Origin: Nocardiopsis sp. FR4
GTDB lineage: Bacteria > Actinomycetota > Actinomycetes > Streptosporangiales > Streptosporangiaceae
Length of the DNA stretch: 64,000 nt
Direction of reading: 5' to 3'
NCBI RefSeq assembly: GCF_009830945.1
Contig: NZ_VWVV01000010.1
Span: forward strand, 124,001 to 188,000
Every line of letters begins with the position of its first letter. Position 1 is the stretch's first letter. Both the position numbers and the translations under genes were made by a program. Of the stretch, positions 38,006 to 59,511 are shown in pieces. Under the pieces are notes generated by a model, which worked only from the letters and a program-made list of their open reading frames with translations, ran no database searches and was not told where the DNA came from.

Positions 38006-39577
38006 ATGGAACTCGCCCTGACCCCCCTGGAGTTCGCCCGCCGCACGCGTAGGCTGCACCCCGCGCGCGAGGCGGTCGTCGACCGGGACCTGCGGCTGAC
38101 CTACGAGGAGTTCTTCGACCGCTGCGACCGCTGGTCGTCGGTCCTGCAGGGCATGGGGGTGGCCAAGGGCGACCGCGTCGCCTACATCGCGCCCAACACC
38201 CACGCCCAGCTGGAGTCCTTCTACGCGGTACCGCAGCTGGGCGCGGTGCTGGTTCCGGTCAACTTCCGGCTCTCGGCGGACGACTTCGCCTACATCGTCA
38301 ACCACTCCGGAGCCCGGGTGCTGTGCGTGCACGCCGACCAGCTCGACGCCGTGGACGGGGTCCGCGACCGGATGCCGGGCGTGGAGCGCTTCGTCGCCCT
38401 GGAGGGCGCGCGGCCCGGATGGGAGGACTACGAGGAGCTCGTGGCCGGGGCCGAACCGGAGTTCACCCGCCCCGAGATCGCCGAGGGGGACCTCCTCAGC
38501 CTCAACTACACCAGCGGCACCACGGCCCGACCCAAGGGGGTGATGATCACCCACCGCAACGCCTACATGAACTCCGTGGGTACCCTGCTCCACCTGCGGA
38601 TCGACGTCGGCGAGCGGTACCTGTGGACGCTGCCGATGTTCCACGCCAACGGGTGGACCTACACCTGGACGGTCACGGCCGCCGGGGCCACCCACGTGTG
38701 CCTGCCCGCGATGACCCCGGCCAACGTGTACGAGCTGATCCGCGCCGAGGACGTCCGCTGGCTGTGCGCGGCACCGACCGTGCTGATCATGCTGGCCAAC
38801 GCACCCGAGGAGGTCCGCGGCGAGGTGCCGCCCGGCGTACACGTGGTCACCGCCGGGGCCTCACCCGCCGCCGCCACGATCGAACGCCTGGAGGACGGTT
38901 TCGGCTGGACCGTCACCCATGTCTACGGCCTGACCGAGACCGCGCCGTTCATCACCGTGTGCGAACCGCGCGCGGAGCACGCCGCCCTGTCCCCGCGCGA
39001 GCGCGCCGCCGTCAAGGCCCGCCAGGGGGTCGAGCTGATCACCTCCGGCGAACTGCGCGTGGTGGACGCCGACGGCGCGGAGGTGCCCTGGGACGGCACG
39101 ACCGTCGGCGAGATCACCGTGCGCGGCAACGTGGTGATGAAGGGCTACTACAACGACCCCGAGGCCACCGAGCGGGCCATGGGCGACGGCTGGTTCCACA
39201 CGGGCGACGCCGCGGTGGTCCACCCCGACGGGTACGTGGAGATCCAGGACCGGATCAAGGACGTCATCATCTCCGGCGGCGAGAACATCTCCTCCGTCGA
39301 GGTGGAGGGGGTCCTGCTGCGGCACCCGGCGGTGCTGGAGGCGGCCGTGGTCGGCGTACCGCACGAGCGCTGGGGCGAGACGCCCCGGGCCTCCGTGGTC
39401 CTGCGCGACGGCGCCTCGGTCACCGAGGCGGAGGTCATCGCCTTCGCGCGGGAGAACCTGGCCCACTTCAAGGCGCCCACGAGCGTGGAGTTCGTGGACC
39501 GGCTCCCCAAGACGGCCACCGGCAAGATCCAGAAGTTCGTGCTGCGCGGCGGCGCCTCCGCCGTCTCCCGGCAGTAG
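38006..39577 (+). CDS. Acyl-CoA synthetase (AMP-binding, fatty-acid--CoA ligase type)
   Basis: 523 residues of the ANL family: P-loop LNYTSGTTARPKGVMITHRN (~170-189), A5 YGLTETAP, A7 GWFHTGDAAVVHPDGYVEI, A8 RIKDVIISGGENIS and the A10 lysine in KTATGKIQKFVLR. Activates a carboxylic acid, probably medium- or long-chain fatty acid, as acyl-AMP then acyl-CoA. AAAGGC-type ribosome binding site upstream of ATG 38006. Stands alone. Confidence 0.9.
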   Translation: MELALTPLEFARRTRRLHPAREAVVDRDLRLTYEEFFDRCDRWSSVLQGMGVAKGDRVAYIAPNTHAQLESFYAVPQLGAVLVPVNFRLSADDFAYIVNHSGARVLCVHADQLDAVDGVRDRMPGVERFVALEGARPGWEDYEELVAGAEPEFTRPEIAEGDLLSLNYTSGTTARPKGVMITHRNAYMNSVGTLLHLRIDVGERYLWTLPMFHANGWTYTWTVTAAGATHVCLPAMTPANVYELIRAEDVRWLCAAPTVLIMLANAPEEVRGEVPPGVHVVTAGASPAAATIERLEDGFGWTVTHVYGLTETAPFITVCEPRAEHAALSPRERAAVKARQGVELITSGELRVVDADGAEVPWDGTTVGEITVRGNVVMKGYYNDPEATERAMGDGWFHTGDAAVVHPDGYVEIQDRIKDVIISGGENISSVEVEGVLLRHPAVLEAAVVGVPHERWGETPRASVVLRDGASVTEAEVIAFARENLAHFKAPTSVEFVDRLPKTATGKIQKFVLRGGASAVSRQ

Positions 39578-39611: not shown

Positions 39612-40406
39612 TCAGTCCGGAGAGGGCTGGAGCAGCACGAACCCCGCCTGGAAGGGGTCCGAGCACACGGCGAGGCGGCCGACGCCCGGCGTGTGCTCGG
39701 GGCCCATGTACACCTCGCCCCCCGCGGTCCGCACCCGTTCGGCCGCGAGGTCGCAGTCGACGACCGCGAACACCGGGTGCCACTCCGCGGAACCGCCGTT
39801 GTCGGACAGGTGTGCGGGGTCGACCGCCATGAGGCCGCCGTGCGCGCGCTCCCGCCCCGCGCCGGGGGGCGTGAGGACCGTGTACGTCCCGGCCTCGCCC
39901 GGCAGTTCGAAGTCGCTGACGCCCCACTTGAACAGGCGCGTGTAGAACTCGCGCGAACCCTCGCCGTCGGGTGTCCACAGCTCGACCCAGCACAGGCTTC
40001 CCGGCCGGTCGGTGACCTCGATCCCGGGGACCCTCTCGGCCTGCCACAGGCCGAAGGAGGCGCCCTGAGGGTCGAAGAACTGGGCTGTGCGACCGAAGTT
40101 CCACACGTCGAACGGCTCCACCAGCAAAGTGCCGCCGAGGCGTTCCACGGTGATGATGGTGTCGTCCACGTCGGGGTCGGCGAAGTAGATCGTCCAGGTC
40201 GGGCGCTCACTCTCGGTCCAGCGGGGGTGGAGGCCGCCGACCACCGCCCCGTCCAGGCGCAGGAGCACATAGCCGCCGCTCTCGGGCGCGGGCGGAGCGG
40301 CCTCCCAGCCGAACACCTCGCGGTAGAAGGCGCCCGAGACGTCCACGTCGGGTGAGGACACCTCGATCCAGCACGGTGAGCCGGGCATGAAGTCGGTGGT
40401 GATCAT
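39612..40406 (-). CDS. Two-domain VOC family protein
   Basis: 264 residues with two tandem vicinal-oxygen-chelate modules: first CWIEVSSPDVDVSGAFYREVFGW ... FFDPQGASFGLWQ, second CWVELWTPDGEGSREFYTRLFKW ... VCSDPFQAGFVLLQ. Similar two-domain proteins are annotated as hydroxylases or glyoxalase-like in Streptomyces; activity unproven. GAGAGGGG is upstream of ATG 40406. Converges on the acyl-CoA synthetase gene with only 34 nt between. Confidence 0.85.
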   Translation of the reverse strand: MITTDFMPGSPCWIEVSSPDVDVSGAFYREVFGWEAAPPAPESGGYVLLRLDGAVVGGLHPRWTESERPTWTIYFADPDVDDTIITVERLGGTLLVEPFDVWNFGRTAQFFDPQGASFGLWQAERVPGIEVTDRPGSLCWVELWTPDGEGSREFYTRLFKWGVSDFELPGEAGTYTVLTPPGAGRERAHGGLMAVDPAHLSDNGGSAEWHPVFAVVDCDLAAERVRTAGGEVYMGPEHTPGVGRLAVCSDPFQAGFVLLQPSPD

Positions 40407-40756
40407 CGCCGCCCCTCTCGGTAGTGCGCACACCTCACCCGACTCCTTCCCCGGTCGGCGGCCTCCCGGGATTCGGGGCGGCAAAGTCTCGCTCAACTCG
40501 GCGTTGCCCGGTGGCACCCGGACAGCTCCGCGGACGGGCGCAGGTGGACCAGGCCGGCCACCGCGTCGGCGTGCCCGGCGCGGCCGGAGGAGCAGGCGTT
40601 CGGTCCGGATCCGCTTGCGCCGTTCACCCGTACGGCCGAGCACGGCACGGCCATCGGTGGATCCACGCGTTCCCGTCCGCCCGCGCCAGGACTCCTTGTC
40701 GGCCCCCCGCGCCCGCCCTAGCATTCCGGCAACACCGAGCTACCCAGAGGTACTCC
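40407..40756. other. Intergenic region with a possible GNAT remnant
   Basis: No intact gene. On the minus strand near 40620-40555 the frame reads KRIRTERLLLRPRRA, which looks like the N-terminus of a GNAT acetyltransferase, then decays. The right end carries AGAGG for the next gene. Confidence 0.25.
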
Positions 40757-42148
40757 ATGCGGACGAGCACCCCCCTGCGCCTGGGCGCGGTCGCCACCGG
40801 ACTGGCCGTTCTCCCCGGCCTGCTCGGCACGGTACCGGCCCTCGCCGAACCCGCCGACGTCCCCGCCGCCACCGTGTCCGGGCCCGTCCCCGTCACCGAC
40901 GACTCCTACCCCTTCATGTCCGCCGACGGCCCCGAGGCCCCCCCGATCGAGGCGGGCGTGCCCATCGAGGTCGACCTCGGCGCGCACGGCTACGTCGAGG
41001 AGGAGTTCCTCCTGGAGGGCACCGCCGAGCACCGCGACCCCGCCACCGGCGAGGTCACCGGCTCCTCCCCCTACACCACCCGGATGGTGGTGCGGAGGCC
41101 CGCCCGCACCCGCGACTTCAGCGGCACGGCCTTCCTGGAGTGGAACAACGTCAGCTTCGGCCAGGACATCGAGATCGACTGGTTCCTGTCCCACGACTAC
41201 CTCATGCGCGAGGGCCACGTCTGGGTCGGCCTCTCCGCCCAGCGGGTCGGGGTCGACGCGCTGCGCGCCTGGGACCCCGAGCGCTACGGCGGGCTGACCG
41301 TCGGCGGCCGCGAGCTGGCCGACGCCCCGGCGTTCGACATCTACTCCCAGACCGCCCGCGCCCTGCGCTCGCCCGAGGGCGTCGACCCGCTGCCCGGCCT
41401 CGACGTCGACACGGTCATCGCCACCGGCCACTCCCAGTCGGCCCGGTACCTGTCCGCCTACCACAACACCGTCCACCCCCACCACGGGGTCGTCGACGGC
41501 TTCGTGATCCACGGCGCCCCCACCGCGCTGGAGGAGGGCACCACGCCCGTCATGCGGGTCCTGGCGGAGACCGACGTGCGCCTGCGCTCCCAGAGCCAGG
41601 AGCCGGACTCGGCGTACTTCCGCCGCTGGGAGGTGGCCGGGACCGCGCACGTCGGCTACACCGAGTACCTCACCTTCGCCCCGCTCATCGCCCGGGAGAA
41701 CCCGGGCACCCGGCCGCAGCGGTGCGACCGGCCGCCGTTCAGCCGCATCCCGTTCCACCACGTCCTGAACGCGGCCTACGAGCACATGGTGGACTGGGTC
41801 GAGGACGGCACCGCGCCGCCGCGGGCGCCGCGGCTGGCGTGGGAGGACGCCGCGACGGCGCGCCGCGACGAGCACGGCAACCGACTGGGCGGGATCCGCC
41901 TGCCCGAGCACGAGGTCGCCACGGCGCTCAACCACGGCGACAACACCGGCGACCCGTTCTGCGTCCTCCAGGGCACCCACGTCCCCTTCGACGAGGAGAC
42001 CCTCCAGGAGCTGTACCCGCGGCGCGGCGGGTACGTCTGGCAGGTGAACCGGGCCGTCAACCGGGCCCGGCACGACGGCTACCTCCTGGCCGAGGACGCC
42101 CGGGACTCGCGCAAGGACGCCCTGCGCACGTCCTACCCCTGGTGGTAG
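40757..42148 (+). CDS. Secreted alpha/beta-hydrolase-domain protein
   Basis: 463 residues. Sec signal peptide (LGAVATGLAVLPGLLGTVPALAE split by the cleavage site near residue 30). The nucleophile elbow is GHSQS in VIATGHSQSARYLSAYH (~215-230), followed later by the His region ALNHGDNTGDPFCVLQG. The layout fits the 'alpha/beta hydrolase domain' family of unknown esterase-like enzymes. AGAGG precedes ATG 40757. Extracytoplasmic; substrate unknown. Confidence 0.8.
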   Translation: MRTSTPLRLGAVATGLAVLPGLLGTVPALAEPADVPAATVSGPVPVTDDSYPFMSADGPEAPPIEAGVPIEVDLGAHGYVEEEFLLEGTAEHRDPATGEVTGSSPYTTRMVVRRPARTRDFSGTAFLEWNNVSFGQDIEIDWFLSHDYLMREGHVWVGLSAQRVGVDALRAWDPERYGGLTVGGRELADAPAFDIYSQTARALRSPEGVDPLPGLDVDTVIATGHSQSARYLSAYHNTVHPHHGVVDGFVIHGAPTALEEGTTPVMRVLAETDVRLRSQSQEPDSAYFRRWEVAGTAHVGYTEYLTFAPLIARENPGTRPQRCDRPPFSRIPFHHVLNAAYEHMVDWVEDGTAPPRAPRLAWEDAATARRDEHGNRLGGIRLPEHEVATALNHGDNTGDPFCVLQGTHVPFDEETLQELYPRRGGYVWQVNRAVNRARHDGYLLAEDARDSRKDALRTSYPWW

Positions 42149-42360
42149 ACCGTGGTGTGGGGCCCGGGAGGGGCCGGGCCCCCACCGCGACCAGGTGCGC
42201 GTCGTCAGTACCGATCGCGTCCGGATAGGCGGCGCCGCGGCCCTGGGCATCGCCGCCCTGCTCCTGCCGCCGCTGCGCGCCGTGACCGAGCGCCGGACTG
42301 CACCCGGCCGATGCTCTGCCGCACCAACGCGCCTCCCGCCGGGCCCGACCGCTTCCTGAT
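42149..42360. other. Short region with a possible decayed coding remnant
   Basis: A plus-strand frame from ~42196 reads VRIGGAAALGIAALLLPPLR, a hydrophobic segment, then becomes non-coding in character. Perhaps the end of a lost membrane-protein gene. Not assigned. Confidence 0.25.
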
Positions 42361-42420
42361 CAGCGCTTGAAGTGCACGAAGAGGCGGCCAGGATACTTGC
42401 CCGAGTTCACTTCCGAGCCG
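42361..42420. repeat. ~60-bp direct repeat, copy 1
   Basis: Begins CAGCGCTTGAAGTGCACGAA. The first 40 bp match copy 2 (42923) at 34/40 and copy 3 (43477) at 33/40. On the minus strand it reads KYPGRLFVHFKR-stop. See copies 2 and 3; the three starts are 562 and 554 bp apart. Confidence 0.7.
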
Positions 42421-42476
42421 CGCGCATCCGCGGAAATCGACTCGCCCTCCCGGGCCGCGTACGCGAGTATCGCGGC

Positions 42477-42908
42477 ATGGACACGTGTGCACAGTGCGGA
42501 GCGGTGAGCGAAACTCCCTGCGAGGAGTTGTTCCAGCAACTGTTGGCGCTGGACCACTCCCGCCAGGAGCCGTGGGGGCCACTGCACGGCGTCGCCGTCG
42601 CGTGCTACCGCCTCCAGCACCCGGCATCCCTCACCGAGGGCTCGCACGTCTTTCCGCTGGAGCTGCTGCGGGCCTACGTCGAGGGCGGGCCCGAAGCGGC
42701 GCGCAGGATGACCGAACACGCCCGCCGCGCCAACTCCCACAGGGCCCGCCGACCGGAACACACGGTCACCGCTCCCCGCTCGGAGGCACCCACCGGGTTC
42801 GCGTTCACCATCGCCGAGGTCGCCGTGGACGGCGGCTTCCCCGCTGACGGCTACCCCGGGCGTGTCCGCTCCTGGGCGGAGGCGACCCTGGCCGGATGGC
42901 GGGGCTGA
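42477..42908 (+). CDS. DUF5946 family protein
   Basis: 143 residues. N-terminal CAQCGAVSETPCEELFQQLL and the family core VAVACYRLQHPASLTE match DUF5946, small actinobacterial proteins with conserved cysteines that may bind a metal. Function unknown. It fills the space between repeat copies 1 and 2 and ends 14 bp before copy 2, so it looks like a one-gene cassette. Confidence 0.75.
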   Translation: MDTCAQCGAVSETPCEELFQQLLALDHSRQEPWGPLHGVAVACYRLQHPASLTEGSHVFPLELLRAYVEGGPEAARRMTEHARRANSHRARRPEHTVTAPRSEAPTGFAFTIAEVAVDGGFPADGYPGRVRSWAEATLAGWRG

Positions 42909-42922
42909 CCGATCCGCCGGCT

Positions 42923-42982
42923 CAGTGCCTGAAGTGGATGAACAGGCGGCCAGGATACTTACGAAGCCGCACTTCGCAACCT
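42923..42982. repeat. ~60-bp direct repeat, copy 2
   Basis: Begins CAGTGCCTGAAGTGGATGAA; minus-strand reading KYPGRLFIHFRH-stop. Differences from copies 1 and 3 fall largely at synonymous positions, suggesting that the repeat derives from the coding 3' end of a duplicated gene. Confidence 0.7.
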
Positions 42983-42991
42983 CGGAGGCGC

Positions 42992-43440
42992 TCAGGCCTG
43001 GCCGGGGAGGGTGACATGGACGCGGTGCGGACCGTTGTAGTGGTGACCCTCGCCTACGGGAAGGCAGCCCAGTCGGGCGGCCAGGCGCAGGCTGGGCGCG
43101 TTGTCGATGTGGATGAGCGCCCAGACCGAGTGCAGGCGAGAGGGTCAAGGCCGTGGCGGACAGCCAGGTACCAGCCGATCTCCGGCAGCCCGCCGGGCAG
43201 TCCCCCCGAGGGGCGCAGATGGGCGAGGCCGACCAGAGCGCCGTCGAGCAGCACGGCCCCGTGCCCCGGTTCCGGCGGCCCGTCGTAGGCCAGCCGGTTG
43301 TCGACCATCCGTCGGGCCAGGGCCGGGTCGGAGAGATCCGCCCCCAACAGGGAGCTCATGGCCGGGTCGGCGAACAGGTCCACCGCGTCATCGGCGTGCC
43401 GTTCCGCAAGGGGTTCCAGGACCAGCCGGTCGCTGGACAA
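42992..43440 (-). pseudogene. GNAT acetyltransferase remnant
   Basis: Reads SSDRLVLEPLAERHADDAVD ... PEIGWYLAVRHGL, then an internal deletion and frame change removes the acetyl-CoA loop. The C-terminus (LHSVWALIHIDNAPSLRLAA, HHYNGPHRVHVTLPGQA) continues in another frame to TGA at 42994. Bounded by repeat copies 2 and 3. Confidence 0.75.
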
Positions 43441-43453
43441 GCACTTCTGCCGC

Positions 43454-43735
43454 TCACCCGTCGGACCGCCGGGAGTCAGTGTTTGAAATGCACGTATAGA
43501 CGGCCAAGATACTTGCAACGACCGCACTTCGGTGCTTCACGGCCATCCGGGCGGCAAGGGCGCCGGGCAGCGCGCGACGGGAGTTGACCCCGAACTTCGT
43601 GTACACCTTCCGCAGGTGCCACTCGACGGTGTGCGGGCTGGTGAAGAGCTCCGTGCCGGTCTTCGCCTTCGTCATGCCGGCGGCGGCGAGCACGGCGACC
43701 TGGGGCTCCTGGGGGGGTGAGTGCGCTCGTCGTCG
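43454..43735 (-). pseudogene. LuxR-type HTH C-terminal fragment
   Basis: Reads PQEPQVAVLAAAGMTKAKTG then SPHTVEWHLRKVYTKFGVNS, the helix-turn-helix end of a LuxR-family regulator. The N-terminal part is missing; the sequence joins the DUF427 remnant directly. The 3' end overlaps repeat copy 3. Confidence 0.7.
43477..43538. repeat. ~60-bp direct repeat, copy 3
   Basis: Begins CAGTGTTTGAAATGCACGTA; minus-strand reading KYLGRLYVHFKH-stop. One base longer than copies 1 and 2 near its far end, which also contains GCAC-CGAA-GTGC (43524-43535 on the minus strand). Confidence 0.65.
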
Positions 43736-43739
43736 CCGT

Positions 43740-44354
43740 CGGAGGACCAGTAGCTGCTCGTCGTCCCCTTGTAGGGGCATCGGGTCACCGTGTCCGAGTG
43801 CCGCAGCCGCGTCCCGTCGATGTTCGCGCGATCGAGGTAGTAACGGGTCGGCAGGCCGGTCTCGAACAACGTCACGCAGTCGGCCGTTTCCGCCAGCACG
43901 GCGCCGTCCAGCTCCACTCGGACCGAGCTGCTGGAACGCAGAGCGTCCACGCGGGAGTACGGGCTGCGCGGATGAAGAAGATCGGCTCGTCCTCCTCGAA
44001 CCAGGAGTCCAGCGCCCCCACTCGAAACGCACGGTGTCGCGCAGGGCTCGCGGGGCGCCTTCCCCAGATCCACGCCTCCCCCGTGCGGACTTCCGGACCG
44101 ACGTGCAGGGGGTGACGGTGTGCGGGTCCGGCGCCGAGCTGCTCGGTGTGCTCGTCGTCGTGGAGCACACCCTCCACCAGGTCCTCGATCGGGATGCTGA
44201 ACTGCGGATGTGCCCGCCATTCCCAGACGTACAGCGCGTGGCGGGTGTCGAAGGCGACCCGGCTGCCGATCATTCCGCGGATCCGGCGGGGAACGGGTTC
44301 GACGTGGCCGATCGGGACGGTGAGACTCGGGTGCAGGGCACCTTTGGATGCCAT
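43740..44354 (-). pseudogene. DUF427 family protein, frameshifted and truncated
   Basis: From ATG 44354 the frame gives IGSRVAFDTRHALYVWEWRA, the DUF427 fold start, then crosses two frame changes near 44050-43960 (one at a G-run) with family pieces in other frames (ALDSWFEEDEPIFF; VDALRSSSSVRVELDGAVLA). It ends TLFETGLPTRYYLDRANI...CPYKGTTSSYWS and runs into the LuxR fragment. Broken gene. Confidence 0.75.
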
Positions 44355-44533
44355 GGTGTTTACCTTGTGTTCGGAGGTGCGGCACTCGCCGCACCCGGTG
44401 TCCGTGGGCGCGGAAGGAAGGCGCCGGCTCGGGCCGACGGGCCCTGATCTACTCCTTCGATGGCATCGACACCCGACAGCGTCGCCGAAAGCGGGACACG
44501 GTGCGCAATCGCACGGTGTGGTGAGCGAGGTGT

Positions 44534-44560
44534 TGTCACAAAACGCGAGGGCTCGCGGTC
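44534..44560 (+). promoter_or_regulatory. ECF41-type promoter, CMD/AhpD-like gene
   Basis: TGTCACA (44534-44540), 16 nt, GGTC (44557-44560). 37 nt before the GTG start. Confidence 0.75.
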
Positions 44561-44597
44561 AATGGGCTGTCAGTGTTCCCACTTGAGGAGATACACC

Positions 44598-45068
44598 GTG
44601 GACGCTCGCGTCAACTACTTCGGCAACGCCCTCGCCGGAAAGGTCATGAAGCACCTCAACTCGGCCGGAGCGGCAGTGCATGCGGCCATCCCGGTCACCA
44701 CTCAGGAGCTGGTGAAGATCCGTGCCAGCCAGATCAACGGCTGCGGCTTCTGCACCGACATGCACACCAAGGACGCCGCCGCGGCGGGTGAGGACCAGCA
44801 GCGTCTGAACCTGGTGGCCGTGTGGCGCGAGGCCACGGTCTTCTCGGACGCCGAGCGCGCCGCGCTGGAGCTGACCGAGCAGGGCACGCGCATCGCGGAC
44901 GCCTCGGGCGGTGTGTCGGACGAGGCGTGGGCGAACGCCGCGAAGCACTACGACGAGGACCAGCTCGCCGCACTGATCTCGCTGATCGCCGTCATCAACG
45001 CCTACAACCGCATCAACGTCATCAACCAGCAGCCGGCCGGCGGCTACAAGCCCGGCATGTTCGGCTGA
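44598..45068 (+). CDS. Carboxymuconolactone decarboxylase family (AhpD-like) protein
   Basis: 156 residues. CMD domain with redox CxxC: QELVKIRASQINGCGFCTDMHTKDA split as CGFC followed by xxH (~50-57). Such AhpD-like proteins act as alkylhydroperoxidase-type thiol peroxidase partners. GAGGAG is 7 nt before GTG 44598. Preceded by an ECF41-type promoter. CMD proteins are the most common ECF41-linked genes, so this is the archetypal target here. Confidence 0.9.
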   Translation: MDARVNYFGNALAGKVMKHLNSAGAAVHAAIPVTTQELVKIRASQINGCGFCTDMHTKDAAAAGEDQQRLNLVAVWREATVFSDAERAALELTEQGTRIADASGGVSDEAWANAAKHYDEDQLAALISLIAVINAYNRINVINQQPAGGYKPGMFG

Positions 45069-45223
45069 GTCAGCCGCTCCGGCCCGGCCGGACACGAACC
45101 GTCCGTCGCCTGGTCACTCCGACCACCGACCAGGCGACGGGCCGAGCCCGCCCCAGCCGGTCGACGGATGCCAGCCCGGCGGGCCGTGCCATCCGCCGCG
45201 GGCCACGGATCCCAAGGACCCTC

Positions 45224-45421
45224 ATGTCAGAACGCCACGCACTCGCCTCCCCGCGAGGGGTCGGCACGGACGTCTTGGAAGTCGCCTGCTACGGGACGGG
45301 TTCAACGGTCGAGGACACCGTGCTGCCGCTACACGGTTTCCCCTACGGCATCCACGGCTGCCTGGGTGTGGAGCGCGCCTACCTCGCCGGGGACGACCGG
45401 GGCGGGCGCACGGGTGGCTGA
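45224..45421 (+). pseudogene. Alpha/beta hydrolase N-terminal remnant
   Basis: Reads VLEVACYGTGS...VLPLHGFPYGIHGCLGVERA, the first strand and oxyanion HGFP motif of an alpha/beta hydrolase, then ends at a stop with the catalytic part missing. A stray frame (PLASRFIRRQAVE-stop) follows. The 45069-45540 region otherwise has no intact gene. Confidence 0.5.
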
Positions 45422-45540
45422 TGGAGCCGCCGTTGGCGTCCCGCTTCATCCGCCGCCAAGCCGTCGAATGACACGACCGGAGCCTCGGCGGTCCGAGTCG
45501 GCGCGTCACAGCGCACCGGCCGCGGAAAAGGAACCAGACA

Positions 45541-45997
45541 TGTCGTACCCGTACCCGGAACAGAAGTACTGGGGAGAGGACGGTGAGGTCGGCGCCGTCT
45601 TCCGGCCGGTCACCACACCGCCGGACATCGGTGAGAGCGGTACCGGCAAGGACGCCCTCCACTATTTGGCGACCACCGGCACCACGCAGGGTGAGTTCGG
45701 TCTGTACCGGGTGGAGATGCGGCCCAGGGCGGGCGGCCCCAAGAGCCACTACCACAAGCGAATCTCGGAGTCGTTCTTCATCCTCGACGGCACGGTGCGG
45801 GTGGTCAACGGTGCGCAGTGGGTCGACGCCCGCAGGGGGACTTCCTGCACGTGCCCCAGGGCGGGCCGCACGCCTTCCGCAACGACTCCGACGCCCCGCG
45901 CGAGGAGTACTTCGAGCAGGTCTCCCAACTGGTGCGCACCTCCGAGGAGGAGCGTGCAGCGTTCTTCGACAGGCACGACTCGTACTTCGTGGAATAG
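45541..45997 (+). pseudogene. Cupin-domain protein, frameshifted
   Basis: MSYPYPEQKYWGEDGEVG ... SHYHKRISESFFILDGTVRV is the first half of a cupin. The frame breaks at the G-run near 45835-45839 (CAGGGGGAC); the rest continues in another frame: GDFLHVPQGGPHAFRNDSDA, REEYFEQVSQLVRTSEEERA, ending TAG 45997. One added G restores ~152 residues. A degenerate ECF41-like site (AATGACA-N16-GGTC, 45467-45493) lies upstream. Confidence 0.75.
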
Positions 45998-46017
45998 GAG
46001 CGGCAGCCACCAACGGA

Positions 46018-46073
46018 AGGGCCCCGTATCCCTGACATTCCGGCGACGACCGGTGTCACGGGTACGGGGCCCT
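46018..46073. terminator. Bidirectional terminator between convergent cupin genes
   Basis: AGGGCCCCGTA (46018-46028) and TACGGGGCCCT (46063-46073) form a perfect 11-bp stem. Confidence 0.65.
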
Positions 46074-46092
46074 GTGAGCGTCCGACCACGAG

Positions 46093-46539
46093 TCAGGCGG
46101 TGGCCCGCGGAGCGCGCAGGTGGGCGCGCTCCCTCAGCTCCTCCTCGTCGACCAATTCGAGCATGGGCCTGCCGGGAGCGCACATCATGGTGACAACGAA
46201 CTCCGTCGTCTCGTCGTCGAGGGCGTTGCCGTCCTGGTAGTGGATGGCGTCGCCGCCCGGCTCCCAGAAGGTTCCGCCGGCCTCGACGATGCGCTCGGGC
46301 TCACCCTCGAGTTCGAAGCGAACGGCACCCTTGATGACGTACCCGAAGGCCGGGCCGGAGTGACGGTGCGGCGGGGTGCCGGGGTCACCAGGCTCCCACT
46401 GGATGTGGATGGTCATCGCCGAGGCGCCCTCGGGAACGGTGATCGGCGAGGCGTCCTGGAGCATCTTCGCCGCGCGGGTCCAGCTGGGGCCGTCCGCGTC
46501 GCCGTGGCCGTGGTGGTCGTGCTGTGAGTTCTCCGACAC
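46093..46539 (-). CDS. Cupin-domain protein
   Basis: 148 residues, intact. His-rich N-terminus (HDHHGHGD), then cupin motif 1 PPHRHSGPAFGYVIKGAVRF (~57-76) with metal ligands, and motif 2 GGTFWEPGGDAIHYQD. A small metal-binding sensor or isomerase-type cupin. Its promoter is an ECF41-type site on the minus strand at 46658-46632. Confidence 0.88.
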   Translation of the reverse strand: MSENSQHDHHGHGDADGPSWTRAAKMLQDASPITVPEGASAMTIHIQWEPGDPGTPPHRHSGPAFGYVIKGAVRFELEGEPERIVEAGGTFWEPGGDAIHYQDGNALDDETTEFVVTMMCAPGRPMLELVDEEELRERAHLRAPRATA

Positions 46540-46631
46540 TGGGTCTCACCTTCCGTGGTTCCATCGTGCGCTGGCGACGCATCGTCCGCCGGCACGGTTC
46601 ATGTCCGGTCGTAAAGCCGCTTGATCCTTCT

Positions 46632-46658
46632 GACCAGGTGTCGGCCGGATCTGTGACA
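46632..46658 (-). promoter_or_regulatory. ECF41-type promoter, cupin gene
   Basis: On the minus strand TGTCACA (46658-46652), 16 nt, GGTC (46635-46632). About 90 nt before the cupin start. Confidence 0.75.
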
Positions 46659-46696
46659 AGGGATGGCAGGCCATCGCGTCCGGAGCCGGGGCGCGG

Positions 46697-46723
46697 TGTC
46701 ACAGGAACCGAACGCGTGCCGTC
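46697..46723 (+). promoter_or_regulatory. ECF41-type promoter, NmrA remnant
   Basis: TGTCACA (46697-46703), 16 nt, CGTC (46720-46723): the exact published consensus -10. It now precedes only a gene remnant. Confidence 0.75.
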
Positions 46724-46805
46724 CAGGTCCGATGAGCACGGTGGCATGGCAACGTCCGCCACCGACATCCGGCGGATCCACGCGCCCCTGACGGAAGAGA
46801 TCCAG

Positions 46806-46995
46806 ATGAGTCGTCGTCGCAGGTGCCGCCGGCCTGATCGGTTCCCGGACCGTCGCCGGGCTCTGGGACCACAGGGTGGAGGTCGTGCCGATCTCACACG
46901 GCGAAGGAGTCGACGTCGGCACCGGGAAAGGTATCGCCCCGGAGCTGCGGACGGCCGAGGTACTCGTGGACGTCACCGACGCCCCTCCCGAGACC
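46806..46995 (+). pseudogene. NmrA/SDR-type N-terminal remnant
   Basis: Near ATG 46806 the frame is disturbed, then reads GAAGLIGSRTVAGLWDHRVE and PELRTAEVLVDVTDAP. This is clearly related to the intact SDR at 52031 (GGTGLIGSKLVAKL ... ASAVVDVSNSP). It stops being homologous at ~46990, where an acyl-ligase-like C-terminus is joined. Confidence 0.65.
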
Positions 46996-47227
46996 AAACG
47001 TGCTCCTGTCGGTCGTCGACGCTGCCGCCGGGGAACGCGTCAAGGTGGGTGAGCGCGGCCAGGTGATCGTCAGTCACGTCAGCAAGTCCATGCTCATCCC
47101 CAACAACGCGGAACGCGACACGGCGGTCCGTGTGCGGCCGACCGGAGACCACGCAGGCGACGCCGTCGCGGACGTGGCGCCCGTGGCCGCGGTGAAAGGC
47201 GAGACCGTGATCGAGGGCGTGTACTGA
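46996..47227 (+). pseudogene. Acyl-AMP ligase-like C-terminal fragment
   Basis: The frame NVLLSVVDAAAGERVKVGER ... HVSKSMLIPNNAERDTA ... AAVKGETVIEGVY-stop resembles the C-terminus of the ligases that partner LuxC-type reductases, such as the phenazine-modifying EhpF group. The N-terminal ~350 residues are gone. The stop overlaps the next ATG by one base, as in an operon. Confidence 0.45.
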
Positions 47228-48290
47228 TGACGGTCGTGAAGGCCGACGGGCCGACGTACCTGGACGCGCTGGGCCCCAGCGGTCCTTGTCGGACGCTCGT
47301 ACCGAGCAGCGCGACGGACGTGTCCGGTACCGAGGTGACGCGACTGAGCCTGGTACCGCCGGTCTACGTCGACCGGGCCCTGGCCGTGCTGCGCAAGGCC
47401 GGGGCCGTACCGACGGCCGGCATGGACGCCCTCTTGGAAGCGGCCGCCGAGGAGTTCGCCAACGGCACCATCGGCGGTCTGGGAGTACGCGAGTACGAGC
47501 ACCTGGTGAGCCGCACCTCCGGCCCCCTGGCAGTGGTGCGCACCGCGACACGGGACACCGCGAGATTCGTCAGCCTGGCCCGTGCCTCGGCCGGCCGGGG
47601 CAGGCCGCGCGGGGCGGCGCGGGACCGTTGGGATCCGGCCCCCGGGTCCGGGCCTGCCGTATGGACCCGCCGGGGCGAGGTGTTCGCCGTCAATGCCTCC
47701 GGCAACCACCCCGGTGTCCACCGGTTGTGGCTGGAGGCACTGACGCTGGGCTACCGCGTCGCCGTACGTCCGTCCCGACGGGAGCCGTTCACTCCGCACC
47801 GCCTGGTCGGAGCCCTGCATCGGGCGGGCGTCCGGGAGGACCAGCTCGTGCTGCCGCCCACGGACCACCAGGCCGTCGGGGCGCTGATCCGCGGTGCGGA
47901 CCGCGCGGTGGTGTACGGCGGAGACGACATGGTCGCCCGGTACGCGAACGATGCCCGCGTGCTGCCGCAGGGACCCGGCCGGACCAAGATCCTCGTCACC
48001 GCGGACACGGACTGGCAGGAGTACCTCGATATCATCGTCGGTTCCGTCGCAGACGAGGGCGGCACCGCGTGCGTCAACGCTACCGCCGTCCTCGTCGAGG
48101 GCGATCCGGCGCCGCTCGCCGAGGCCGTCGCGGACCGCCTGTCCCGGCCGCCCGGTCCGCCGCCCAGGACACCCGGGCGGTACTCCCGGTGTGCCCGCTG
48201 AACCGGGCCCGCGCCCTCGACTCCTATCTACGGAAGGTGGCGGCGGGGACCCGCGCCTGGCTCGGCGGTGACGGCACCGTAGACGACCTC
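47227..48290 (+). pseudogene. LuxC/EhpG-like acyl-CoA (acyl) reductase, frameshifted and truncated
   Basis: From ATG 47227 the protein reads VFAVNASGNHPGVHRLWLEA, YRVAVRPSRREPFTPHRLVG and DEGGTACVNATAVLVEGDPA with the catalytic Cys, the pattern of aldehyde-dehydrogenase-superfamily acyl reductases. The main frame runs into a stop at 48201; the homologous end (VLPVCPLNRARALDSYLRKV, AGTRAWLGGDGTVDDLGDGS) is in another frame and then breaks off at ~48290. Non-functional as written. Confidence 0.6.
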
Positions 48291-48615
48291 GGGGACGGAA
48301 GTGCCCGCACGGGTCCGCCGCGGTGTGGTGGGCCATCGGAACACCTCCGGCTGGGGTGTCGTGGGCGGGGGGCGGCCCCACCGTGGGGCGTCCGCGTTGT
48401 GGAGTGCGGGCGTCTTGCCCGACACCGGGTACGCCTCCTGGTCCATGGCGGTTCTCGGTCCTGACCAGGTGCGCGACCGATCCGCGACGGCGGTTGTCGG
48501 AGAGTGGCCGGGTGACATGGTGTGCCAACGTGATGGCGGTGGAACGACCATCCGCCACAGCGTCCGTCCCCGGCCGCTTGTAGCATGGGGTGCACGAGGC
48601 CAGAAGGGATGACCC
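48291..48615. other. Gap upstream of the ECF41 sigma gene
   Basis: No coding frame of normal character and no (T/C)GTCACA-N16-(G/C)GTC element directed at the sigma gene. GAAGGGATG-type purines lie before ATG 48616. Confidence 0.5.
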
Positions 48616-49512
48616 ATGCACCCTGGCGCCCGACCCGGCACTCTGGACCAAGCGACGAGGGACTTCCTTTCGGCGCGCTCACGGCTTTTCGGCATCGCGT
48701 ACCGAATCCTGGGCAGTGCGGTGGAGGCCGAAGACATCGTGCAGGAGACCTGGCTTCGATGGCAGAAGACCGACCGTGCGAAGGTCAATGAGCCGCTCGC
48801 CTTCCTGACCACGGTCGCCACGAGGCTGGCGATCAACCTGGCCCAGTCCGCGCGGGTACGCCGGGAGTCCTACGTCGGACCCTGGCTTCCGGAGCCCGTC
48901 GACACCGCGCAGGATCCGCAGTTGGGCGCGGAGCGGGCCGAAGCCCTGGAAATGGCGGTGCTGCTCCTACTGGAGAGGCTGAATCCCCTGGAGCGAACCG
49001 CCTACGTGCTCCGGGAGGCGTTCGACTACCCCTACGGACGGGTCGCCGAGATCCTGGAGATCACCGAGGCCAACGCCCGTCAACTCGTGAGCCGCGGGCG
49101 CAGGCGCCTGGCCGCCGAGCGCAAGGAGCGCGTCACTCCGGCGGCCCATCGGCGGCTGCTGGAGGTCTTCCTCTCCGCCGCGCGAACGGGCGACCTGTCG
49201 GCGCTGGAGGACGTGCTCACCGCCGATGTCGTCAGCTACTCGGACGGAAACGGAATCCGCGGCGCATCCAAGATCCCGGTCGTCGGGCGGGCCCATGTCT
49301 CGCGGTACCTCGTGGCCCTCGCTCCGCGTTTCTGGCTGCAGTCCGAGATCCGGTGGGTCGAGGCGAACGGCCGGTCGGCCGTGCTGGTCTCGTCCGGCGG
49401 GGAGGCGGTCGCCCTGCTGACCGCCGGCATCTCGGCGGACGGCATCGAGCAGATCATGTGGGTGATGAACCCGGACAAGCTGAAGCCGTTCGTGGCCTCA
49501 CTGCGGGACTGA
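48616..49512 (+). CDS. ECF41-type RNA polymerase sigma factor (SigJ-like) with SnoaL-like extension
   Basis: 298 residues. Sigma2 (ARSRLFGIAYRILGSAVEAE, DIVQETWLRWQ), a linker with the ECF41 signature WLPEP (YVGPWLPEPV), sigma4 (LNPLERTAYVLREAFDYPYG, ITEANARQLVSRGRRRL), then a ~120-residue SnoaL_2-like C-terminal domain with DGNGIRG (the DGGG-type motif) and the ECF41 signature NPDKL at ~287-291. In this group the fused domain replaces an anti-sigma factor. It sits in the middle of at least seven matching promoters. Confidence 0.93.
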   Translation: MHPGARPGTLDQATRDFLSARSRLFGIAYRILGSAVEAEDIVQETWLRWQKTDRAKVNEPLAFLTTVATRLAINLAQSARVRRESYVGPWLPEPVDTAQDPQLGAERAEALEMAVLLLLERLNPLERTAYVLREAFDYPYGRVAEILEITEANARQLVSRGRRRLAAERKERVTPAAHRRLLEVFLSAARTGDLSALEDVLTADVVSYSDGNGIRGASKIPVVGRAHVSRYLVALAPRFWLQSEIRWVEANGRSAVLVSSGGEAVALLTAGISADGIEQIMWVMNPDKLKPFVASLRD

Positions 49513-49544
49513 CCGCGCCGCGGTCGGGGCTTCGAGGGACCGTC

Positions 49545-49571
49545 CGTCACATTTCCGGCTGCTCGGCGGTC
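49545..49571 (+). promoter_or_regulatory. ECF41-type promoter, OsmC/Ohr gene
   Basis: CGTCACA (49545-49551), 16 nt, GGTC (49568-49571). 60 nt before the GTG start. Confidence 0.7.
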
Positions 49572-49630
49572 ATTCAGCGGTCCCGGACCTCTGCCGGGAA
49601 CGCGCACTTCGACGACAACGGAGTCATGCC

Positions 49631-50109
49631 GTGACGGAGCGGATCCAGTTGTCCACCCTGCCGACCGAGAAGGACTACGACGGGGAGGAGTTCTCGCCCA
49701 TCTACACGACCACCGTGACCGTCCACGGCGGTGTGGCCTCACATGAACGGGCCTCCGGCCGGGCCCGCTCGTCCGACGGCGCCCTCGACCTCGACCTGCG
49801 GATGCCCGCCGAGCTGGGCGGTGACGGCCGGGGAACCAACCCCGAGCAGCTCTTCGCGGCGGGTTTCGCGGCGCGCTGAGCCTGCTGGCACGTCAGGAGG
49901 GCCTCGATCCGGCGGCGATCTCGATCGAGGCGACCGTCGCCTTCGGGCGGGACCCGGAGGACGGCGGCTATCTGCTGCATGTCGATCTGGTGGTGCGGTG
50001 GCCCGGAGCCGCTGCCGAGACGGTCGACGACCTGATCGAGAAGGCCGACGCGTTGTGTCCGTACGCGCGCATGGCCTGGCGGGGAACGCCGACCACCATC
50101 ACGTTGTGA
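49631..50109 (+). pseudogene. Ohr/OsmC-type peroxide reductase, internal deletion
   Basis: The first part reads YTTTVTVHGGVASHERASGR ... NPEQLFAAGFAA, then the frame ends at 49879. The second part (LSLLARQEGLDPAAISIEAT, ADALCPYARMAWRGTPTTITL split over the family C-terminus) is in another frame to TGA 50109. A deletion of about 13 nt removed the segment that should hold the first peroxidatic Cys (AAC-FHGAL). The resolving Cys (LCPYAR) remains. So this ECF41 target has lost function. Confidence 0.8.
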
Positions 50110-50124
50110 CACGTGTTCTGCCGC

Positions 50125-50151
50125 TGTCACAAACCGCCGCCTGACCCGGTC
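50125..50151 (+). promoter_or_regulatory. ECF41-type promoter, flavoprotein gene
   Basis: TGTCACA (50125-50131), 16 nt, GGTC (50148-50151). 35 nt before the GTG start. Confidence 0.75.
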
Positions 50152-50186
50152 CTACTCAGTGACCACCCATTGCGACTGGAGCAATC

Positions 50187-51917: not shown

Positions 51918-51958
51918 CGGCCCTCCGGCCGAGAGGACCGCTTCACGCACAGCTCCCG

Positions 51959-51985
51959 TGTCACAGAAGACGTTCGTACTCGGTC
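51959..51985 (+). promoter_or_regulatory. ECF41-type promoter, NmrA-type SDR gene
   Basis: TGTCACA (51959-51965), 16 nt, GGTC (51982-51985). 45 nt before the start. Confidence 0.75.
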
Positions 51986-52030
51986 TTCCCCAGTGTGAAC
52001 GACACCGTACATCTCGAAAGGATCGTCACC

Positions 52031-52777
52031 ATGAAGGTCGTAGTCATCGGCGGTACCGGACTGATCGGCTCGAAGCTGGTGGCCAAGCTCAATGAGCACG
52101 GGCACGATGCGGTACCGGCCGCCCCGAACACCGGCGTCAACACGATCACGGGCGAGGGGCTGGCCGAGGTCCTGACCGGTGCGTCGGCCGTGGTCGACGT
52201 GTCCAACTCGCCGTCCTTCGAGGACGACGCCGTGATGGAGTTCTTCCGGACCTCGACCACCAATCTCCTCAAGGCGGAGGCGGACGCGGGTGTGACCCAC
52301 CACGTGGCGCTCTCCGTGGTCGGCACGGAGCGGCTGCAGGAAAGCGGCTACTTCCGCGCCAAGCAGGCGCAGGAGACCCTGATCAAGGAGTCCGGCATCC
52401 CGTACTCCATCGTTCACGCCACGCAGTTCTTCGAGTTCATGAAGGGCATCGCCGAGGCGGCGACCGAGGGTGACACCGTCCGGCTGGCCCCGGTCAAGAT
52501 CCGTCCCGTCTCCTCCCACGACGTGGCCGCCGCGGTCGGCCGCACCGCGGTCGGTGGCCCCGTCAACGGGGTCGTGGAGATCGCCGGTCCCGACGAGTTC
52601 CAGCTCGACGAGCTGATCCGCAGGGGCCTGGCCGCCAAGAAGGACCCGCGCAAGGTCGTGACCGACGTGCACGCCCCGTACTTCGGTGCGGAGTTGAAGG
52701 AGACCACGCTGCTCCCCGGTCCGGACGCGAACATCGGCGCGACCCGGTTCGCCGACTGGCTCGCCCAGCAGAGCTGA
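52031..52777 (+). CDS. NmrA-like NAD(P)-binding SDR family protein
   Basis: 248 residues, atypical SDR: Rossmann loop VVIGGTGLIGSKLVAKLNEH at the N-terminus, later HHVALSVVGTERLQESGYFR and YSIVHATQFFEFMKG. No classical YxxxK site. These proteins can be quinone reductases or redox sensors and are the 'epimerase/oxidoreductase' partners of ECF41 genes. ATG 52031 has GAAAGGA 9 nt upstream. A decayed relative is at 46.8 kb. Confidence 0.9.
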   Translation: MKVVVIGGTGLIGSKLVAKLNEHGHDAVPAAPNTGVNTITGEGLAEVLTGASAVVDVSNSPSFEDDAVMEFFRTSTTNLLKAEADAGVTHHVALSVVGTERLQESGYFRAKQAQETLIKESGIPYSIVHATQFFEFMKGIAEAATEGDTVRLAPVKIRPVSSHDVAAAVGRTAVGGPVNGVVEIAGPDEFQLDELIRRGLAAKKDPRKVVTDVHAPYFGAELKETTLLPGPDANIGATRFADWLAQQS

Positions 52778-52786
52778 GTCGGCGTG

Positions 52787-52810
52787 CGGCGGGCCCTCGA
52801 GGGCCCGCCG
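52787..52810 (+). terminator. Terminator after the SDR gene
   Basis: A 24-nt perfect palindrome centred on CTCGAG, 10 nt after the stop. A second stem (CCTGCCG/CGGCAGG, 52825-52848) follows. Together they insulate the SDR from the convergent NADH dehydrogenase gene. Confidence 0.75.
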
Positions 52811-52917
52811 ACAGACGGATGGGGCCTGCCGCACCGCGGCACGGCAGGTCCCTCTTCACCTCCGGCACAGACGGCAGAGTCCCGGCGGTCACCGGCGGTA
52901 CCCGGCGGCGGACACGC

Positions 52918-54249: not shown

Positions 54250-54353
54250 GGTGTCCTACCTTCTCGCTCGGGTCTGAACTGGCGTTCGTGAAATCGGTGA
54301 GCCCGGGGGCCCTGGGTATGGCCGTCCTCTGTTCTCCTCGACTTCGACTCTTA

Positions 54354-54380
54354 GACCGGTCATCGCCGTCCCGTGTGACA
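54354..54380 (-). promoter_or_regulatory. ECF41-type promoter, ndh gene
   Basis: On the minus strand TGTCACA (54380-54374), 16 nt, GGTC (54357-54354). The -35 overlaps the outer bases of a large hairpin. Confidence 0.75.
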
Positions 54381-54429: not shown

Positions 54430-54480
54430 GTCTCGTTCCGGGTGTGATGGAGGCTCTCAAACCTGGGAAGGACGAGAGTC

Positions 54481-54946: not shown

Positions 54947-55411
54947 TCACTCCGCCAGGGACAGCGTGAAGACCATCCGGTCCGCCCCCGGGCCCTCGTA
55001 GTCGGTGTGCGGGCCGGTCACCCTGAAACCCAGGGCGCGGTGGAAGGCGATCGACCGCTCGTTGGCCGGCGACGTGATCGCCCGGACCACGGTGCGCCCC
55101 TCGGCCCGGGCCGCCTCGGTGAAGCGGCGGTACAGGCGGCTGGCGAGTCCCGTCCTGCGCTGTGCCGGGGCGACCCCCGCGAAGTGGACGTACGCCTCCT
55201 CGGGCGCGGACGGCGAGTGGAAGCCGACGAGGAACCCCGCCAGTTCCCCGTCGGACTCCGCCACGAGACTGGTGGTGTGGAAGTGGTCCAGGAAGAGCCG
55301 GGGAAGGATGTGCGACACGGGGCGCTCCCACCAGGCGTCGCAGACCGCCACGATGCGCGCGTGGTCACCGGGGAGGGCGGCGCGGACGCGTACGTCGGTG
55401 GTGTCCTCCAT
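54947..55411 (-). CDS. GNAT family N-acetyltransferase
   Basis: 154 residues. Acetyl-CoA loop VAPAQRRTGLASRLYRRFTE (~82-101; QRRTGLA) and C-terminal NERSIAFHRALGFRVTG are classic GNAT features. Substrate unknown. GGAAGGAGACGGC precedes ATG 55411. Same strand as the membrane protein upstream at 55439. Confidence 0.9.
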   Translation of the reverse strand: MEDTTDVRVRAALPGDHARIVAVCDAWWERPVSHILPRLFLDHFHTTSLVAESDGELAGFLVGFHSPSAPEEAYVHFAGVAPAQRRTGLASRLYRRFTEAARAEGRTVVRAITSPANERSIAFHRALGFRVTGPHTDYEGPGADRMVFTLSLAE

Positions 55412-57815: not shown

Positions 57816-58664
57816 TCAGCCGCCGTCCGCGGGCTCCGCGGGCCGGTCGGCCGAGAAGATCGCGGTGCCCGGGATCATCCGCCCGCGCACCGGACCCCAG
57901 CCGCCCCACACCCGGTCCAGGCCCTCGGGCCACTCGGGTTCGACCATGTCCCGCAGCACAAGACCGGCACGGGCGATCCCGCGCACCCAGTCGCCGACCG
58001 TGTGGTGGTGCTCGACGTAGACCGCGTTGCCGTCGTCGTCCTCCTCCACGTAGGCGCGGCGGTCGAAGTAGGACTGGCGCACGGTGAACCCGTGTTCGCC
58101 GGGGTCGTCCGGGAAGCTCCACCGGATCGGGTGCGTCACCGAGAACACCAGCCGCCCGCCCGGCCTCAGGACCCGCGCGGCCTCGGCCAGCGCCTCCTCG
58201 GCGGAGGGCACGAAGGGGAAGGCGCCGAAGGAGGAGAACACCGCGTCGAAGGAGGCGTCGAGGAAGGGCAGGTGCTGCGCGTCGGCCTGCACGGTGGGCA
58301 GCGCGTGCCCCGTCTCGGCGTCGAGGCGGCGCGAGTGCCGCAACTGGCGCGCGGACAGGTCGAAGCCCGCCACCTCGCGCACCCCCTGGGCGCGCAGCCA
58401 GCGGCCGCACTGACCCGCACCGCAGCCGACCTCCAGGATCCGGGAGCCGCGCAGCCGTTCGGGATCGCCCAGCAGCCGGGCCCGCGCCTCGGTCAGCCCC
58501 TCGGGGCACCACACGAACTCGGCGTCGCCGAGGAAGTCCCCGTGTTCGGCCTGGTAGGCGTCGGCCGCGCCGTCCCACCACAGGCGCCCGGCTCGGGCGC
58601 TCTCGCGGGCGTCCACCGCGCGGCGCTCCACGCGTCCGGGCGGCGGGTAACCGTCCTCGTCCAT
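57816..58664 (-). CDS. Class I SAM-dependent methyltransferase
   Basis: 282 residues. SAM loop ILEVGCGAGQCGRWLRAQGV (~77-96), QADAQHLPFLDASFDAVFSS as motifs II-IV, and GRLVFSVTHPIRWSFPDD. N-terminal RLWWDGAADAYQAEHGDFLG is typical of actinobacterial small-molecule methyltransferases. TAGGGT lies 8 nt before ATG 58664, so the mRNA may be leaderless. Converges on kptA with an 11-nt gap. Confidence 0.88.
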   Translation of the reverse strand: MDEDGYPPPGRVERRAVDARESARAGRLWWDGAADAYQAEHGDFLGDAEFVWCPEGLTEARARLLGDPERLRGSRILEVGCGAGQCGRWLRAQGVREVAGFDLSARQLRHSRRLDAETGHALPTVQADAQHLPFLDASFDAVFSSFGAFPFVPSAEEALAEAARVLRPGGRLVFSVTHPIRWSFPDDPGEHGFTVRQSYFDRRAYVEEDDDGNAVYVEHHHTVGDWVRGIARAGLVLRDMVEPEWPEGLDRVWGGWGPVRGRMIPGTAIFSADRPAEPADGG

Positions 58665-58674
58665 GGACGCCACC

Positions 58675-59511
58675 CTAGACGCCCTGACCGGTGTTCTCCG
58701 AGCGGTGCCCGGCCGGGACGTCCGCCCGGGGAGCGCCGCCGCCCTCCCCGGGAGGCTCCGCCGAGGCGGCCTCGCGGGCGTCCCCGATCTCGCGCCGCAC
58801 CAGGAACACCCATCCGACGACGGCCACGACGGTGAACACCCACCACTGCACGGCGTAGGACAGGCTCATCCCCGAGTCCAGCTCGTGCAGCGCCACCCGC
58901 TCGGGTGCGGGGTCCGGGGCCGGGTCCTGCCGGGTGAGCTCCACGTACCCGCCGTAGACCGGGTAGGGCAGCTCCTCCGCGATCATGGGCACGTCCACCA
59001 TCATGAGCTGCCCCTCGGGCAGGTCGTCGCGGTTCCTGAGCCCGGTGTTCTCCTCGGTCTCGGAGTAGTGCAGGCGTCCGGCGACCTCGACGGTGCCCTC
59101 GGGCGCGGGCGGCACCTCGGGCCGGTCGAGCGCGGTCTCACCGCGCTGGACCCAGCCCCGGTTGACGAGGACGGCCGGGCCCCCCTCGGTGACCAGCGGC
59201 GTCAGCACGTGGAAGCCCACGCCCTGGGACCCGTCGCGGTTGCGCAGCAGGATCTCGTGTTCGGTGTCCCAGGTCCCGGTGGCCTCCACGGTGCGCCAGC
59301 GGTCGGCGGGGTCGACATCCCGGCCGACGCCGGTCAGCTCGTCGACCGGCACGGGGTCGGCGGCGAGGTTGTCCTGCTGGAGCCGGACCGACGCGCTGCG
59401 CTGCTCCCAGCGGTCGAGCTGCCAGAAGCCCAGCCAGATGAAGCTGGGCACGATCACCAGCACCAGCGCGTGGAAGGCCAGCATGCGTCGTGAGAACAGG
59501 ACTTTGAGCAC
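58675..59511 (-). CDS. SURF1 family cytochrome c oxidase assembly protein
   Basis: 278 residues with the SURF1 layout: N-terminal membrane segment (LAFHALVLVIVPSFIWLGFW, GFWQLDRW motif), a large outer loop (VLVNRGWVQRGETALDRPEV) and a C-terminal membrane segment (AVQWWVFTVVAVVGWVFLV). SURF1 helps insert heme into oxidase subunit I. GTG 59511 is chosen; the preceding GC-rich extension is not family-like. A charged Pro/Gly tail follows the last helix. Confidence 0.9.
   Translation of the reverse strand: MLKVLFSRRMLAFHALVLVIVPSFIWLGFWQLDRWEQRSASVRLQQDNLAADPVPVDELTGVGRDVDPADRWRTVEATGTWDTEHEILLRNRDGSQGVGFHVLTPLVTEGGPAVLVNRGWVQRGETALDRPEVPPAPEGTVEVAGRLHYSETEENTGLRNRDDLPEGQLMMVDVPMIAEELPYPVYGGYVELTRQDPAPDPAPERVALHELDSGMSLSYAVQWWVFTVVAVVGWVFLVRREIGDAREAASAEPPGEGGGAPRADVPAGHRSENTGQGV

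Follow-up and report, generated by a model that had tools for sequence, protein, structure and literature searches.

Direct repeats and gene remnants at the locus

The window, a 64,000-nucleotide stretch of Nocardiopsis sp. FR4 (contig NZ_VWVV01000010.1), contains three direct repeats with one small gene or gene remnant in each of the two intervals. The repeats form a 44-nt family (at 42355, 42917 and 43471) in which copies 2 and 3 are 84% and 73% identical to copy 1, respectively, with spacings of 562 and 554 according to the repeat finder. The first-pass annotation had recognized these repeats but placed their starts one base too high (the exact starts are 42360, 42922 and 43476). The site also extends past the 40 bp it had compared, an 18-nt left arm (e.g. 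GAAGTG...AAG) bringing it to about 54 bp. Its minus-strand reading, K-Y-(P/L)-G-R-L-x-x-H-F-(K/R)-(R/H)-stop, holds for all three copies. The two genes it had placed between them are equally real: a DUF5946 gene with a strong Pfam match, and a GNAT remnant with a score of 25.3 bits, the cut-off being 25.4.

A site model was used to search the 6.1-Mb genome, where the three copies in the window are the only strong sites (E values of 1.6e-13, 3.5e-13 and 1.6e-11, these copies being part of the training set). A DNA search with one copy, which is independent of the site model, gave matches in relatives with E values down to 9e-12. A 36-nt matrix of the tails had no match in shuffled loci. The Rfam search returned nothing credible, a degenerate DNA pattern had no match in the genome contigs, and no att site was found in plasmid and phage records at E 0.1.

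In genomes of the same genus an intact gene of 83 aa, MRLKLDLHDIFN...GRLFIHFRH-stop, ends in the matching sequence; it codes for an Smr-domain protein (Pfam E 3.6e-13). Of 40 genus genomes, 34 carry this gene, smr, in intact form, and the present genome gave no match to it. The repeat peptide, previously suspected to be the tail of one lost gene, is the C-terminus of smr, and the full gene ending in this peptide that remained to be sought is found in relatives. The features of the locus, with loci of related genomes denoted by L numbers, are as follows.

38006..39577, plus strand: AMP-binding ligase, 92% to L047; conserved flank downstream of the smr array of relatives.
39624..40406, minus strand: VOC-family gene, 76% to L047; conserved flank downstream of the smr array of relatives.
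42183..42242, minus strand: vapC C-terminal remnant (GRGAAYPDAIGTDDAHLVAV), 70% over 20 aa, E 0.002.
42360..42413, minus strand: att copy 1, smr 3′ end (KYPGRLFVHFKR-stop) and left arm GAAGTGAACTCGGGCAAG; closes the DUF5946 cassette.
42477..42908, plus strand: DUF5946 gene (PF19371, E 2.5e-33); cargo of a cassette of about 562 bp, from att 1 to att 2.
42922..42975, minus strand: att copy 2, smr 3′ end (KYPGRLFIHFRH-stop) and left arm GAAGTGCGGCTTCGTAAG; closes the GNAT cassette.
43054..43440, minus strand: GNAT acetyltransferase remnant; cargo of a cassette of about 554 bp, from att 2 to att 3.
43476..43529, minus strand: att copy 3, smr 3′ end (KYLGRLYVHFKH-stop) and left arm AAGTGCGGTCGTTGCAAG.
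43517..43720, minus strand: LuxR-type HTH fragment (GerE E 1.2e-7), with a weak vapC match (E 0.2).
54950..55396, minus strand: GNAT gene, 81%; directly before smr in L047 and L062, marking the expected place of smr.
57819..58661, minus strand: methyltransferase gene, 87%; upstream of smr in relatives.
58777..59511, minus strand: SURF1-like gene, 84%; upstream of smr in relatives.

In the window, the neighbours that smr has in relatives are all present and keep their order. The window is therefore the smr locus, from which smr itself has been lost. About 11 kb (43540-54950) lie in the place of smr and include the LuxR fragment, a carboxymuconolactone decarboxylase, a sigma factor and other genes. 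On the other side, an esterase-like gene (40424-42148) separates the array from its conserved VOC neighbour.

The copies in the window are best read as recombined attachment sites and not as decayed whole genes, each combining a cassette-specific left arm with an smr 3′ end. An arm near-identical to that of copy 1 follows DUF5946 in L047, L051 and L077, and the arm type of copy 3 is found after vapBC cassettes in relatives. The vapC remnant, located about 120 bp beyond att 1, is the trace of another, truncated vapBC cassette. At the other end, the LuxR-type fragment continues into AVKHRSAVV, identical to residues within the vapC of relatives; it is probably the scar of two events, the loss of an upstream vapBC cassette and the deletion of smr. 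We read the array in the window as a decayed two-cassette remnant (GNAT, DUF5946) accompanied by vapC scraps, with smr and the upstream end gone. The DUF5946 protein had no PADLOC or NCBIfam match, and its structure model (pLDDT 69) gave no convincing PDB match.

Cassette arrays behind smr in related genomes

The smr region was taken from 56 genomes besides this one, many of them draft assemblies, and the sequence after smr was mapped with the tail matrix and protein queries; 57 oriented loci served for the analysis of cassette order. In many genomes smr is followed by discrete cassettes 0.56-1.8 kb long, with a tail closing each of them; most hold type II toxin-antitoxin pairs. Six cassette families recur (vapBC, phd-parE, yefM-yoeB, a second PIN pair, DUF5946 and GNAT), and a PemK/MazF pair represents a further type. 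The vapBC-like cassettes combine an RHH antitoxin with a PIN toxin, their Pfam matches being below cut-off. By ORF listing and Pfam, the cassettes encode toxins, antitoxins, DUF5946 and GNAT proteins, a nucleotidyltransferase-like ORF and one IS transposase. An IS4/5-family transposase gene lies within a MazF-type cassette of one array (L081:7481-9300, genome G057).

Cassette order is shuffled between species. The orders read vapBC-DUF5946 in L047, phd/parE-GNAT in L049, phd/parE-vapBC in L050, phd/parE-DUF5946-yoeB in L051, yoeB-vapBC in L073, DUF5946-phd/parE in L077 and yoeB-PIN2-vapBC-phd/parE-DUF5946 in L085. The orientation of the cargo is fixed within each family. Tail-adjacent genes are all in forward orientation for vapC (17/17), parE (14/14) and GNAT (8/8), and all reversed for DUF5946 (9/9), yoeB (8/8) and PIN2 (3/3). 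The window agrees with these orientations: its GNAT remnant points in the direction of smr and its DUF5946 gene in the opposite one. Two exceptions to the general layout were seen among the loci, an inverted vapC end with a tail beside smr (L059:7687-7722) and a second partial smr at the end of an array (L089:9725-9862).

In the 40 genus genomes all site-model matches with E below 0.005 sit at smr. In the wider family, too, the matches fetched lie at smr, and several other genera have arrays. Outside Nocardiopsis and the related genera in its family no arrays were found; the Smr genes fetched from Micrococcales (Brevibacterium, Nesterenkonia) and from Micromonospora had none. The Smr proteins of Brevibacterium and Nesterenkonia (L144, L146, L149, L152) are 84-89% identical to the Nocardiopsis query. 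These genera belong to another order, yet their Smr is closer to the query than that of many members of its own family, which may reflect either horizontal transfer of smr or strong conservation.

Comparison of related loci showed that a filled site differs from an empty one by exactly one cassette and one extra tail. The alignment of L056, which carries phd-parE, with the empty L062 runs from -729 to 252 and resumes at 897, equivalent to 214 in L062. This corresponds to a 683-bp insertion with 39 bp of the smr end duplicated and 94% identity on both sides. The equivalent differences amount to 986 bp between L054 and L066 and 969 bp between L052 and L067. The smr reading frame is intact in filled loci. 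Moreover, the similarity of cassettes does not follow that of their hosts: the hosts of L047 and L048 are 93% identical and their DUF5946 proteins 63%, whereas the hosts of L075 and L101 are 56% identical and their YoeB proteins 88%. Cassettes thus move independently of their hosts.

The idea that the repeats served as recombination or insertion target in a cassette-like layout had been advanced from the window alone, with a lack of further copies or of variation in cassette content named as grounds against it. Further copies are present in relatives, the tails bound cassettes whose content and order vary by species, and exact pairs of empty and filled sites exist; neither ground against the idea applies, and it is supported.

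Relatives of vapC were also found away from smr in four genomes. In Ca. Nocardiopsis merdipullorum (L223:5271-6870, G017:C468), vapBC lies directly behind a NUDIX hydrolase gene; vapC is followed by CTTCCGTAAGTGCATGCA and then by 150 bp that repeat the NUDIX 3′ end at 97%. This repeat begins at TCGG after CAAGAAC, as at smr, and the arm motif is the same; CAAGAAC(T)TCGG is common to both targets. The NUDIX gene would be a second attachment gene for this kind of cassette, and finding such a layout at a gene unrelated to smr speaks for a general mechanism. The related vapBC genes away from smr in G027 and G002 have no repeats, the vapBC in L224 and L225 stands behind a gene end with no repeat there, and the vapC relative in L226 is a remnant.

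Proposed attachment site and models of cassette gain

Downstream copies of the site read approximately AAGTG-CATCG-NNNN-AAG-TACTTCGGCCGCCTGTTCGTCCACTTCAGGCACTGA. The left arm (AAGTG...AAG) is typical of the preceding cassette, and AAGTG is found at -17 in 21 of 38 array copies as against 0 of 56 smr ends. To its right the site consists of smr coding sequence: 32 of the 38 array copies end with a stop in the smr frame, and variation among the tails falls mostly at third codon positions (entropy 0.44/0.42/0.99). Both features are expected if each tail was once the end of a living smr. A W-type smr end (GRLWIHFRH, with AT-richer codons) occurs only with a cassette behind it (10/39 versus 0/17, p 0.02, host relatedness not being fully removed from this test or from the permutation tests). 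Therefore incoming cassettes seem to bring their own tail. Among neighbouring copies within a genome, excess identity peaks at positions 6-14, GGCCGCCTG (z 5.6, with 2.4 and 2.5 for the flanks), from which we infer that the crossover would take place within this segment.

The repeats are, in our judgement, probably the attachment sites of a site-specific cassette array that has its anchor at the smr 3′ end. A circular cassette would be joined to smr within GGCCGCCTG by a site-specific recombinase supplied in trans. The incoming cassette would donate the new last codons of smr, leaving the gene intact, and the old tail would be shifted downstream, there closing the cassette. Repeated insertion could build the array, the toxin-antitoxin cargo may resist its loss, and in the present genome the array has decayed. 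A broader proposal, which we make tentatively, is a non-integron type of cassette capture. The recombinase would recognize a short CAAGAAC-TCGG motif near gene 3′ ends, mainly that of smr, and each cassette would supply the host gene with replacement codons; the attachment site would then stay functional through selection on an ordinary gene.

Some observations do not follow from a site-specific array. The smr end and the next tail are alike over much of the tail in L054, L055, L056, L058 and L080, which simple exchange without homogenization of tails does not predict. The vapBC genes without repeats in G027 and G002, the partial smr of L089, the inverted remnant of L059 and the decayed state of the array in the window also stand against it. 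Tails identical to the smr end in several loci, together with the L089 and L059 cases, indicate that homologous exchange and decay also act on these loci.

No recombinase is present among the cassette ORFs listed. PF00589 (tyrosine recombinase) had no match on the array contigs of five genomes (G000, G008, G020, G024, G049), and PF00239 (serine recombinase) had none in the whole array-bearing genomes G020 and G024 at E <= 1e-6. Integrases shared next to tRNA genes were judged to be ordinary elements at these genes and were set aside. In several genomes (L218, L220, L221; G000:C4:296248 and orthologous places) no more than about 10 kb separate the genus dif from two different tyrosine recombinase genes that form a pair. 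The pair may supply the missing recombinase or belong to another dif-linked element; no att site was found near it.

Target-site duplication, with cassettes placed at the smr 3′ end by a transposase or a Cas1-like integrase and about 35 bp of that end doubled as in CRISPR arrays or casposons, is an unlikely source of the tails. The near-identity of adjacent tails in L056, L058 and L080 and the 150-bp repeat of the NUDIX case would fit such a process. An identical repeat on both sides of the insert is nearly true in about five loci and false in most others. Against such a process, the excess identity of neighbouring copies is concentrated at positions 6-14 and is not tail-wide, W-type ends accompany cassettes, and left arms are cassette-specific. 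We regard it as quite unlikely that homologous recombination acts alone, swapping segments of rare, old arrays through smr and flank homology with no active recombinase. Fixed orientation, cassette-specific arms, shuffled orders and single-cassette differences between empty and filled sites all speak against it, as does the recurrence of the arm motif at the NUDIX gene, even if smr and the first cassette are shared over longer stretches in L047/L055 and L049/L051 and L089 holds a second partial smr. L089 is also the only locus with upstream smr sequence before a downstream tail; in the other copies the break occurs at about the same point. Tandem smr duplication with genes inserted between the remnants, to which L089 alone lends colour, is thus extremely improbable.

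The remaining alternatives assign the array to a known system. As a special case of the site-specific array, the recombinase could be the housekeeping XerC/XerD pair, as for the dif modules of Acinetobacter. XerC/XerD-like recombinases are present in 5/5 genomes checked, and dif modules also bear toxin-antitoxin pairs (PMC6449649). The dif/pdif site is a 28-bp XerC/XerD site of 11+6+11 (PMC6449649). Between the genus dif (CCGATAATNCACATTATGTCAA) and att, 11 of 28 positions agree, no more than the shuffled mean of 12.2, which makes this case distinctly improbable; membership of the dif/pdif class was dropped because att is unlike the 28-bp dif.

The core of attC has the consensus R''/R' RYYYAAC...GTTRRRY, and chromosomal integrons carry toxin-antitoxin cassettes. 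An integron relic (CALIN) whose repeats are attC sites and whose integrase has been lost would account for this type of content, and for an array layout and small cassettes like those of chromosomal integrons (PMC8618304). Such a relic is nevertheless exceedingly unlikely. The core pair is found in 0/38 copies (it is also absent from random windows), hairpin potential is lacking (mean folding z -0.25 for the top and -0.23 for the bottom strand, 38 copies), and the TIGR02249 integrase is found in 0/40 genus genomes (E <= 1e-20, none over cut-off). Membership of the integrons was accordingly dropped, there being no IntI, no attC core pair and no hairpin.

Comparison with known systems

A search of the literature, covering openly licensed papers, found no description of arrays at smr. 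Growth of the smr array resembles that of a CRISPR array in that each addition at a fixed end brings one more repeat copy. Unlike CRISPR, the smr loci have no spacer-size inserts and the identity between neighbours is local, not repeat-wide; no cas genes were noticed in the smr loci read in detail.

Integration in a conserved protein gene is shared with SCC at rlmH (PMC10581047) and with SGI1 at the trmE 3′ end (PMC8409611). Islands of this type also have repeats at their ends and may form composite arrays, and the smr array keeps the reading frame of its host gene. However, SCC and SGI1 are large and typically encode a ccr or integrase of their own, whereas smr cassettes measure 0.56-1.8 kb and have no recombinase gene. 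The dif modules of Acinetobacter (PMC6449649), like the smr cassettes, are discrete modules of one gene or one toxin-antitoxin pair with short recombination sites and no inner recombinase, and are presumably driven in trans. The smr array differs in being chromosomal and confined to one gene, with co-directed copies of a site of about 54 bp that is unlike dif.

Integrons are the textbook route by which bacteria stockpile cassettes. If the present reading is confirmed, the smr array would be another route for gene-cassette capture and would explain how single chromosomal toxin-antitoxin pairs can spread in actinomycetes; the short site, along with strains whose site is empty or filled, would then allow a direct hunt for the recombinase. 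With chromosomal integrons and CALINs the smr arrays share tandem small cassettes with one site each, a site-specific anchor, shuffled order and toxin-antitoxin content. They differ in their anchor, which is the coding 3′ end of smr and not attI, in having neither attC core nor hairpin, with no IntI in the 40 genus genomes, and in the orientation of the cargo, which is fixed per family in either direction. The locus is an integron-like shuffled array in actinobacteria, without IntI or attC, that sits on the coding end of an ordinary gene.
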